This document shows, piece after piece, positions 48,336 to 50,502 of a DNA stretch of 64,000 nt (positions are counted from its first letter, which is position 1; the number at the start of each line of letters is the position of its first letter). The stretch lies in contig NZ_CP065958.1 of NCBI RefSeq assembly GCF_041270065.1, positions 4,526,001 through 4,590,000 on the forward strand, read 5' to 3'. Origin of the DNA: Streptomyces fradiae (lineage in GTDB: Bacteria; Actinomycetota; Actinomycetes; Streptomycetales; Streptomycetaceae). Under the pieces are notes generated by a model that ran no database searches, was not told the origin of the DNA, and saw nothing but the letters and a program-made list of their open reading frames with translations. The position numbers and the translations under genes are program-made.

Positions 48336-48747
48336 GGGCCACCGCCCCGCCGAGTACGAGGCAGAGCGGGGTGTACGCGAGCGCGTTCAGCCACGGGAAC
48401 ACGGCACCCGACCCGTCCTTGCCGGCGACGATCCAGACGACCCCGACGGCGCCGCGCAGCAGCAGCCCGCCGGCGAAGACGGCGGTCCCGAGCCGGGCGA
48501 GCCGCGCGAACCGGCCCCCGCGCCCCCATGCGTACGTCCCCACGCACACCGCCCCCACGGCCTCGATCACGGCGAGCGGCAGTACGACCGCGGGTCCGAA
48601 GGACACCACGCTCCCCAGGACCGCGAGCGAGAGCCCCCGCTCGTCGGCCGCGGGCCACACGGCGCCCGTCGCCCAGTACACGTGCAGGAGCGCGAGCACT
48701 CCGAGCAGCACTGCCCCGCCCCGCGCGGCCATGCGGTTGTCCCTCAC
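48319..48747 (-). CDS. DUF3995-type membrane protein
   Basis: The 142-residue protein has four hydrophobic helices (AVLLGVLALLHVYWATGAVWP; LAVLGSVVSFGPAVVLPLAVIEAVGAVCVG; LARLGTAVFAGGLLLRGAVGVVWIVAG; WLNALAYTPLCLVLGGAV), matching DUF3995. GTG 48747 has GGGGAGG six bases upstream. It is the first gene of the operon with the sigma factor and SRPBCC genes, and overlaps the sigma start. A membrane sensor role is possible but unproved. Confidence 0.82.
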   Translation of the reverse strand: MRDNRMAARGGAVLLGVLALLHVYWATGAVWPAADERGLSLAVLGSVVSFGPAVVLPLAVIEAVGAVCVGTYAWGRGGRFARLARLGTAVFAGGLLLRGAVGVVWIVAGKDGSGAVFPWLNALAYTPLCLVLGGAVARELRR

Positions 48748-48961
48748 GGATTCCTCCCCTGTGTCCCCGGTCGAACCGACACCCAGAGGAGGAGACGAGT
48801 ACGCGGAACGTTCCCTGTGACGTGCGCCACAGCTGATCCGGTCCCGGAAACGCAGGCGACCCGTGGGCCTTGGTCCCGTCCGCCTAGGCGCCTAGGTCGG
48901 GCGGGAGCCGGCCGGACTGACCGGCGGCCCACGGGTCGGGTGACTGCGATGATGTCGGCAG

Positions 48962-49001
48962 AAGGCCTGCCGAGGTGCACAAGAGTGCGACGGCAGGCCT
49001 T
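48962..49001 (-). terminator. Terminator of the 12-codon unit
   Basis: AAGGCCTGCCG (48962-48972) pairs perfectly with CGGCAGGCCTT (48991-49001). An inner GCAC/GTGC stem folds the 18-base loop. It starts at the TAA of the 12-codon frame, so termination follows translation at once. Confidence 0.7.
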
Positions 49002-49038
49002 AGCCCGCAGTCACCTCACGAGTCCGAAAAGAAACCAT
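49000..49038 (-). CDS. 12-codon ORF with an extended Shine-Dalgarno sequence
   Basis: ATG (49036-49038) to TAA (49000-49002) encodes MVSFRTREVTAG. It has its own promoter (49072-49100), an exceptionally complete ribosome binding sequence (49045-49059) and a terminator (48962-49001), so the whole transcript is about 100 nt. The start codon lies in the loop of a hairpin formed by TCCGAAAA (49023-49030) and TTTTCGGA (49040-49047). The peptide has no recognisable family. Alternatively the RNA itself is functional, acting as an SD-like ligand of 30S ribosomes, and the peptide is incidental. Confidence 0.5.
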   Translation of the reverse strand: MVSFRTREVTAG

Positions 49039-49044
49039 GTTTTC

Positions 49045-49059
49045 GGATCACCTCCTTTC
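49045..49059 (-). promoter_or_regulatory. Extended Shine-Dalgarno (perfect 16S 3'-end complement)
   Basis: On the minus strand the RNA reads GAAAGGAGGUGAUCC, complementary over 15 bases to the 3' end of 16S rRNA, which ends in GGAUCACCUCCUUUC-U. Ordinary genes in this window use 4-7 bases of this match. The AGGAGG core is 12 bases from the ATG. Confidence 0.8.
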
Positions 49060-49071
49060 GCGTGTGACCAC

Positions 49072-49100
49072 ACACTAAGAAGCCGCTTCCGCTCGCTCAA
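49072..49100 (-). promoter_or_regulatory. Promoter of the 12-codon unit
   Basis: -35 TTGAGC (49095-49100) and -10 TAGTGT (49072-49077) are 17 bases apart on the minus strand, a good vegetative-type promoter. Transcription should begin near 49065, six bases before the Shine-Dalgarno sequence. Confidence 0.65.
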
Positions 49101-49179
49101 CCCATTTTCCGGAAGCTGTTTTTTCGGCAACGGGCTGTGTCCTGGGTCACGTTTCCAGTTGAATGAAGCGGGGGTGTCG

Positions 49180-50502
49180 ATGACTGCTTCGACGGCGAGT
49201 GTTCCTGGGGCGGATCTTCCCGGGGCGGACCTGCTGGCCGCCCTGCTCGACGGGATGGACGCGGCGCTGTGCGCGCTCGACGCCACGGGCAGAGTGACCC
49301 ACTGGAACCGGGAGGCCGAGCGGATCCTCGGCTGGAGCGCCGGCGAGGCGGTCGGGCGGCAGGGCTTCGACGGCTGGGCGGCGCGCAGCGCGGACGCCGC
49401 GGACATCGCGGCGCGGCTGCGGGGCGCGATGACCGCGCCGGGACGCCAGGTGCACGAGTTCGCGCTGCTGCGGAAGGACGGCGGGCGGGTCCTGGTCCGT
49501 ACCCAGACGGCGGGGGTGCGGGGCGCGGACGGCGGCCCGGCGGGGGTGTACTGCGCCTTCAGCGAGGTGCACGTACAGATCGACCTGGAGCGCTCGCTCG
49601 CGCTGAGCGAGGCGCTGTTCGCGGACGCCGCGTGGGGCGTGGTCCTGGTCGACGTGGACCTGCGGCCGGCCGTGGTGAACGCGCACGCGGCCCGGGCGCT
49701 CGGCGCGGCGCGCGGTTCGCTGCTCGGGCGGCCGCTCGGCGAGCTGGTCACCCAGGGCGTGGAGGAGCTGGAGGGCGCCCTCCAGCACGTGCTCGCCGCG
49801 GGCTCCCCGGCGGCGCCCGCCGACGTGTGGGTCACCCTGCGCGGTGCGCGCGGCGAGCGCCGCCGCTGCTGGCGCTGCGGTTTCGTCCGGCTCGCCTCGC
49901 CGCTGGCGGAGGGGCCGGAGCCGGTGCCGCTGGGGGTGGCCTGGCTGTTCCAGGACGTCACGGAGGACCGGCTGGCCGCGCAGGACGCGGACCGGCTGCG
50001 TTTCCGCTGGAGCCAGCTGCACCGGGCGGGCGCGGCGGCCGCCGAGGTCGAGGACCCGGTGCGGGCCGCCGCGGTGCTGCTCGACTTCGCGCTCGCCGGT
50101 TTCGCCGACCACGTCCTGGTGGACCGCGCGACCCCGGAGGGACGCCTGGTCCGCGCCCTCGCCACCCCGTCCGGCGCCCCCGGCCCGGTCGCCCCGCTCA
50201 CCACCGCCGGCATCCCCCTGCGCTACGCCCCCTCCCACCCCGCCGTCCGGGCCCTCGCCCGCCCCGGCACCACCCGCACCAGCACCACCCCCGGCACCGA
50301 CCGCCTCTGGCCCCCCGACGCCGCCCACGCCCTCTGCGTCCCCCTCCGCTCCCGCGCCCGCACCCTCGGCATCACCACCTTCCTCCGCTCCCCGGCCCGC
50401 CCCGCCTTCGAACGCGAGGACACGGAGTACGCGGAGACGGTCGCGTCCCGGGTCGCGGCGGCGCTGGACGGGGCGGGGGAGTGGGGCGCGGGTCTGGCTT
50501 GA
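49180..50502 (+). CDS. PAS/GAF sensory protein
   Basis: The 440-residue soluble protein has two PAS-like domains (ALLDGMDAALCALDATGRVTHWNREAERILGWSAGEAVG; LFADAAWGVVLVDVDLRPAVVNAHAARALGA) and a C-terminal GAF-like domain ending in AFEREDTEYAETVASRVAAALDGAG. In streptomycetes this N-terminal layout usually leads to a PP2C phosphatase, which is absent here. ATG 49180 (GTG 49174 alternative) follows GGGGG. It may be a signal sensor acting through a separate partner. Confidence 0.82.
   Translation: MTASTASVPGADLPGADLLAALLDGMDAALCALDATGRVTHWNREAERILGWSAGEAVGRQGFDGWAARSADAADIAARLRGAMTAPGRQVHEFALLRKDGGRVLVRTQTAGVRGADGGPAGVYCAFSEVHVQIDLERSLALSEALFADAAWGVVLVDVDLRPAVVNAHAARALGAARGSLLGRPLGELVTQGVEELEGALQHVLAAGSPAAPADVWVTLRGARGERRRCWRCGFVRLASPLAEGPEPVPLGVAWLFQDVTEDRLAAQDADRLRFRWSQLHRAGAAAAEVEDPVRAAAVLLDFALAGFADHVLVDRATPEGRLVRALATPSGAPGPVAPLTTAGIPLRYAPSHPAVRALARPGTTRTSTTPGTDRLWPPDAAHALCVPLRSRARTLGITTFLRSPARPAFEREDTEYAETVASRVAAALDGAGEWGAGLA

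Follow-up and report, generated by a model that had tools for sequence, protein, structure and literature searches.

The window, the 64,000 nucleotide stretch of Streptomyces fradiae DNA analysed here (contig NZ_CP065958.1, forward strand positions 4,526,001 to 4,590,000), carries on its minus strand a long complement of the 16S rRNA 3′ end followed by an open reading frame of only 12 codons. The question raised by this locus is whether the element is a gene for a very small peptide, a leader of a neighboring gene, or an RNA that acts on or through the ribosome itself. Positions given below are those of the window.

The element belongs to an RNA family that is already catalogued, and is longer than first thought. 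Rfam RF02471 (Ms_IGR-5) is the sole gathering-level match in the window; it lies at 48851-49065 on the minus strand, scores 88.6 bits against a cut-off of 45 and spans model positions 1–184, the full length of the model, which places the element in the family. Thus the original prediction of a self-contained 100 nt unit is refuted, the RNA being about 215 nt long. With its ends predicted from model score and fold, the full RNA extends over 48851-49067 (minus strand), and this 217 nt sequence displays a minimum free energy of −127.2 kcal/mol (z = −7.45), a value equaled by 0 of 200 shuffled sequences. The terminator that had been proposed to begin at the stop codon is not one: positions 49000-48963 form the tip of an internal stem, P3, closed by GGTGACTGCG/CGCAGTCACC, and a terminator scan of 48700-49250 detected none. 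The proposed promoter is present as a minus-strand sequence, with a −35-like TTGAGC (49100-49095), 17 nt and a −10-like TAGTGT (49077-49072), but a simple sigma-70 scan gives it no score. Near the corresponding place 192 of 211 homologs show YANNNT, with TTG upstream in 145; these are raw counts with no chance control.

Transcription of homologs is on published record for S. lividans SLIV_16488, listed with "RNA-seq validation yes" (PMC8079986), and for an S. avermitilis homolog recorded as an sRNA unit (PMC8780764). In M. smegmatis and M. abscessus the Ms_IGR-5 homologs are reported to carry ribosome reads, although the same authors warn that footprints are also seen on the majority of characterised E. 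coli ncRNAs (PMC4974804). The literature searched, which did not extend to the original Ms_IGR-5 report and supplements, holds no description of an open reading frame, Shine-Dalgarno sequence or function of Ms_IGR-5 RNA; likewise the reading frame, the geometry of second Shine-Dalgarno and stop, and occurrence outside the Actinobacteria, all described below, are absent from the accounts found.

The first Shine-Dalgarno sequence, SD1 (GAAAGGAGGTGATCC, 49059-49045, minus strand), is a 15 nt perfect complement of the 3′ end of this genome's own 16S rRNA, as had been predicted. The 14-mer AAAGGAGGTGATCC occurs eight times in the 7,883,796 base genome, once here and seven times in sequences recognised as antisense of 16S 3′ ends. 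A scan of 3.4 Mb of fetched DNA for 16/16 matches with G.U allowed, counting both strands and including overlapping loci, gives 258 element copies, seven 16S antisense sequences and one match classed as "other" (L282), which is also an element copy whose second motif lies beyond the 70 nt display. The idea that the element is a fragment of 16S antisense is ruled out: the 16S match is confined to the Shine-Dalgarno sequence, and the downstream sequence differs from 16S antisense. An origin from phage or plasmid was rejected as well, plasmids and phages showing no match at E = 1e-5; the exact GGTGGTCC-form pattern is found in 0 viral contigs, although this pattern would miss the window's own version.

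The calculated duplex of SD1 with the 16S tail has an energy of −28.2 kcal/mol, and that of the second motif, GAGGUG with its flanks, −11.9 kcal/mol. In plain ensembles of 26 RNAs SD1 is on average 0.52 unpaired, which argues against an SD1 that is always open, and the second motif is 0.29 unpaired, i.e. mostly paired. Many Acidobacteriota sequences have a base inserted in the Shine-Dalgarno sequence (GGAGGATGRTYC; L286-L288, L290-L293, L295, L298 and L301-L303), and in these loci the start, the second Shine-Dalgarno and the stop spacing are still maintained. An anti-Shine-Dalgarno-like CACCTC in the P3 loop of the window (48977-48972) could pair with SD1, and a CACCUC-type loop 3′ of the stop codon is seen by eye in several deep lineages (L064, L100, L091 and L076; GGAUCACCUCC in L100). 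A universal internal anti-Shine-Dalgarno was dropped as a candidate, CACCTC being missing from the commoner Streptomyces forms inspected.

The 12-codon open reading frame (MVSFRTREVTAG), for which conservation of the frame is the evidence, runs from AUG (49038-49036) to UAA, positions 49038-49000 of the minus strand, and its predicted sequence is confirmed. Within it lies the second Shine-Dalgarno motif, SD2 (GAGGTG, 49012-49017), situated 9 nt before the stop codon. This arrangement was followed through 216 loci, of which 136 come from genus, phylum and further collections and 80 are named loci picked by the exact Shine-Dalgarno plus GAGGTGRCYG; a contig-end fragment (L128) was dropped, and as some contigs are included twice, 192 distinct cores were also counted. 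In the 80 loci the two motifs are therefore not independent evidence, but start, frame and stop are. With 5–13 nt scanned, all 216 loci have a stop codon 9 nt (211 loci) or 8 nt (5 loci) past GAGGTG. The stop codon itself varies (UAG 159, UGA 40, UAA 17). An in-frame ATG, GTG or TTG is found 8–13 nt after GGAGG in 164 of the 192 distinct cores, compared to 3 and 3 for the other two frames; when CTG, ATT, ATC, ATA and ACG are added, an in-frame start is found in 192/192 and the other frames give 11 and 15. Only near-cognate starts (CUG, AUU, AUC, AUA, ACG) are present in L067, L069, L070, L077, L086, L089, L165 and L224.

More distant loci show the same layout. GAGGT[G/A] with a stop 8–9 nt further on is present in 49 of 50 further loci (Acidobacteriota, "Delta" and deep actinobacterial), the exception (L324) having 11 nt, and the start is in frame in 49/49, the two other frames giving 5 and 0. 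For Zixibacteria and Sumerlaeota 22 new loci were inspected, out of 53 matching genomes, and all 22 fit with 8–9 nt to the stop. In the sets of 50 and 22 loci the script picked a GAGGT with a suitable stop, which makes them a less stringent check of the spacing. Over all sets 287 of 288 loci fit, some of them duplicates, with open reading frames of 10–22 codons that start 7–15 nt, mostly 10–12 nt, after GGAGG. In the loci with 8 nt spacing (5 of the 216, two of these being the same contig, and 6 of the further 50), start and stop are in frame with each other and GAGGT is one frame off.

Stem P1 pairs CACG (49064-49061) with CGTG (49020-49017) on the minus strand and encloses SD1 and the start codon. 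Its covariation score is 0.661 compared to 0.168 ± 0.034 for shuffled alignments (0/500), and 81% of its cells are paired against at most 49% at slid positions; however, two of five measures, both cruder ones, are not above the shuffles (both-side changes 487/500, pair types 127/500), and as the structure was read from these same sequences the test favors P1. The pair types include CACG/CGTG, CCAG/CTGG, CGCG/CGCG and CTTC/GAAG, and all four pairs form at the best nearby position in 148 of the 192 cores. Stem P2 (49047-49040 with 49030-49023, minus strand) is the predicted 8 bp hairpin UCCGAAAA/UUUUCGGA with the AUG in its loop. It is present in the sequence and in the centroid fold, but the minimum free energy structure pairs the Shine-Dalgarno strand with the loop instead. 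In homologs P2 is a short GGUCC/GGACC helix with 85% of cells paired, which is general, whereas the 8 bp form is special to this clade. P2 varies on one side only and two-sided covariation is absent; one-sided variation is expected if the 5′ strand must also match 16S rRNA.

Stem P3, found in the minimum free energy fold, pairs GGTGACTGCG (49015-49006) with CGCAGTCACC (48948-48939) on the minus strand, with the tip hairpin at 49000-48963, and GAGGUG is also the start of its 5′ strand. Beyond the near-invariant GGUG/CACC, P3 covaries with a score of 4.34 compared to 3.54 ± 0.05 shuffled (0/500), the 251 loci used, which were found through a motif blind to pairing, yielding 115 distinct strand combinations. 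The 97 non-Streptomyces combinations give 4.23 compared to 3.39 ± 0.06. The test covers loci with an AAUCC-like motif, and the shuffles keep relatedness in. This AAUCC-like...CACC motif, 3′ of the stop and at the P3 3′ strand, is present in 154 of 213 loci. A regex count of P3 pairs in the 154 (120 U-A, 8 C-G, 23 C-C, 2 C-U, 1 A-U) was set aside, the C-C class being mis-placed CCG.

A 3′ hairpin, P4 (48857-48938, minus strand), is predicted from the fold, and its loop AGTCC (48918-48914) may pair with GGACT (49025-49021) in a pseudoknot, P2′. Among Streptomyces sequences, the nucleotide that follows GGA[C/U] is complementary to the one preceding the P4-loop GUCC in 71 of 78 cases (G-C 53, U-A 18). 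A tree made from the RNA sequences shows just 7 and 6 changes, and with so few independent changes the pairing of the P4 loop with the GGAC strand is likely, not proven. Among P4 loops detected with GUC required (187 of 216 loci, 116 distinct pairs), pairing scores 4.88 compared to 4.45 ± 0.06 in 300 shuffles. Zixibacteria loci, and similarly L097, have no P4 and display a terminator-like hairpin with a U-run directly after P3. Taken over these comparisons, conservation of both reading frame and structure is well supported.

Within the genus, RF02471 matches 120 of 121 genomes, 118 with a single match and two (G078 and G069) with a second, weaker one. The sole congener without a match (G008) is a 5.5 Mb, 98% complete assembly in 740 contigs, which suggests either loss or an assembly gap. 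In the phylum, 70 of 396 genomes match at E = 0.001, with 35 above the cut-off, and none of 14 well-known control genomes matches. A model of the 5′ module, R1, was made from 35 sequences taken greedily from the 216 curated loci at less than 0.82 likeness, and some of the genomes searched with it had supplied sequences to it. R1 matches 149 of the 396 phylum genomes (247 without), 46 of 199 in Acidobacteriota (the phylum of a Bryobacterales record), 36 of 98 in the phylum of a Zixibacteria record and 17 of 40 in that of a Sumerlaeota record. Around "Deltaproteobacteria" records there are 2 of 198 in each of two draws, the same genomes both times, i.e. the centre and G806. Group names are taken as labelled in database records; one locus labelled Acidobacteriota (L172, 67 bits) looks actinobacterial. 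Nearly all R1-matching genomes carry one match, with two in G337 and G600. Of the four genomes with a second match to a model, three have a second match weaker than the first.

Several matches are on megabase contigs, among them G610 at 3.79 Mb and G963 at 3.44 Mb, so that binning errors cannot account for every match. For Acidobacteriota the centre and 29 others of the 46 matches were inspected, the 16 weakest being left out. The conservation asked of the Shine-Dalgarno block and hairpin is thus found, in that the Shine-Dalgarno sequence, enclosing stem, reading frame and stop are kept both within the genus and beyond the phylum. A layout kept across several phyla points to an RNA of old origin whose mode of action would be the capture of ribosomes.

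The neighborhood of the RNA is not broadly shared between families. In the window the gene on one side encodes a PAS/GAF protein (plus strand, 49180-50499), and those on the other side, both on the minus strand, encode a DUF3995 protein and a sigma factor of the ECF type. S. coelicolor scr4389 may, judging from its number, lie near the locus, and nothing found equates it with this RNA. Flanking open reading frames of L010-L146 were compared all against all, using flanks of about 1.5–2 kb and mechanically called frames, and the 45 largest clusters were viewed. Most clusters are restricted to one family, and the RNA is therefore most simply viewed as an independent gene. Clusters of mixed families are all small: one of f9/f1/f5, one of f9/f44/f65 and three of 5 loci from f44, f29, f65 and f66.

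The best remaining reading is a ribosome-binding RNA or translation sensor. More specifically, we give a probability of about 0.42 to a stand-alone structured RNA that doubles as a minigene and would capture a ribosome, keep it at the stop codon and thereby change the fold of the RNA. This reading draws on an SD1 that is unique apart from 16S antisense, a frame that is kept with any of the three stop codons, covariation of P1 and P3, neighbors that are not broadly shared, the mycobacterial ribosome reads and the transcripts of the S. lividans and S. avermitilis homologs. Against it stand the footprints common on E. coli ncRNAs, an SD1 only about half unpaired and an SD2 mostly paired in the ensembles, the one-sided variation of P2, the two P1 measures at shuffle level, the few independent changes in P2′, and the 247 phylum genomes without R1 and 14 control genomes without RF02471. 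A 30S subunit would bind the 16S-complementary strand with melting of P2, and the ribosome would then translate through P1. When the stop codon occupies the A site, 8 nt separate the end of GAGG from the P-site codon. A spacing of 8 nt is favorable for Shine-Dalgarno pairing, so pairing of SD2 with the anti-Shine-Dalgarno could hold the terminating ribosome at the stop and P3 would stay open. When free 30S subunits are few, P1–P3 would close; ribosome occupancy would in this manner set the RNA fold. Pairing of the liberated GGAC strand with the P4 loop could follow in the Actinobacteria. A regulatory output is envisaged, in which the RNA either reports the capacity for translation initiation or keeps a ribosome parked.

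A broader form of this proposal, at rather less than an even chance, is an ancient, multi-phylum "ribosome-clamp" class in which the ribosome and not the peptide would be the purpose: the maximal Shine-Dalgarno captures, the second holds at the stop, and the supply of free ribosomes or the fidelity of initiation is read out as fold. The CUG, AUU, AUC, AUA and ACG starts are cited for the initiation-fidelity option.

A different proposal, which we regard as doubtful, is a dual-function base-pairing sRNA whose 3′ part (the P3 3′ strand and P4) regulates mRNAs in trans, with translation of the open reading frame controlling exposure or stability of that part. It agrees with a gene that lacks broadly shared neighbors, with the recurrent AAUCC-like...CACC motif and with the listing of the RNA as an sRNA in Rfam, S. 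lividans and S. avermitilis. But P4 is missing from the Zixibacteria loci, and with the U-run hairpin placed directly after P3 there is little 3′ sequence in common beyond the P3 strand.

The length of the 16S complement also brings up a guide or quality check of the 16S 3′ end, in which the RNA pairs the whole tail to monitor or aid 30S maturation and translation is the signal of success. In many lineages pairing can extend as far as the terminal 16S nucleotides (AGAAAGGAGG), and with G.U allowed it is 16/16 in 152 of the 192 distinct cores; without G.U, however, the longest perfect run is just 7–9 nt in 60 of the 192. The conserved stop and SD2 are left unexplained by such a guide, and we consider it unlikely.

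Somewhat more improbable still is a functional micropeptide of 10–20 residues. The in-frame start and stop are kept, the peptides share a recurrent ...EV[A/T]xx-stop ending, and an MK.D[SC]-like N-terminal beginning is common to many Acidobacteriota, where some peptide constraint is possible. However, in the loci with GAGGTG in frame 0 the E-V residues come from GAG GTG with fixed third positions, as in an RNA motif, and the residue before E-V tracks the covarying P1 (R for CGTG, L for CTGG). In six families (f21, f46, f52, f59, f68 and f71) GAGGT is read in another frame and gives GG-rich tails, with start and stop still in frame, and the length varies over 10–22 codons. The micropeptide option of the original prediction is thus weakened, the peptide sequence being shaped mostly by RNA constraints.

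A cis-acting leader or attenuator of the downstream gene (here the DUF3995 protein and ECF sigma factor) is very improbable: these genes are on the same strand in the window, and two of the three f44/f29/f65/f66 clusters are downstream on the plus strand with 5 loci of four deep families each, but a broadly shared same-strand downstream gene, as expected of a leader-peptide attenuator, is not found in L010-L146, the long downstream open reading frame of f9 (11 loci) is on the opposite strand, and the Zixibacteria copies have a U-tract hairpin of their own at the end.

The ribosome-capturing RNA favored here has partial likenesses among known systems. The consensus of the Caulobacter sRNA CC2171 (Rfam RF01867) contains near its 5′ end the same 16S-tail complement, GAAAGGAGGUGAUCC, as compared with window positions 49067-48963 and with L092; the consensus shown does not have GAGGUG. 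Membership in CC2171 was rejected, the score being 20.3 bits against a cut-off of 75, with no CC2171 match in this genome. CC2171 is perhaps a parallel case or an alphaproteobacterial counterpart. SgrS and RNAIII are small stand-alone dual-function RNAs with an open reading frame and have functional peptides or known targets. The present RNA is likewise small and stand-alone with an open reading frame, but its peptide seems mostly to follow RNA structure and its Shine-Dalgarno sequence is extreme. In the trp and whiB7 leaders translation of a short open reading frame alters a downstream stem, and a short frame is placed before a stem here too, but with no broadly conserved downstream gene. Similar to tmRNA, the RNA is structured and would bring a short frame to the ribosome; unlike tmRNA it has no tRNA-like domain, and ARAGORN finds 0 genes in 48600-49300.

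Within the searches named, what appears new is the pair of Shine-Dalgarno elements with a conserved frame linking the two, together with the spread over multiple phyla. If the reading is true, several phyla would have a common RNA that pairs directly with the 3′ tail of 16S rRNA and in this way senses or parks ribosomes, a layer of control that to our knowledge is assigned to no known RNA family. A conserved "coding" frame could then serve the ribosome and not the peptide, and an unexplained Rfam entry would become a testable sensor of translation capacity, including in the antibiotic-producing Streptomyces.
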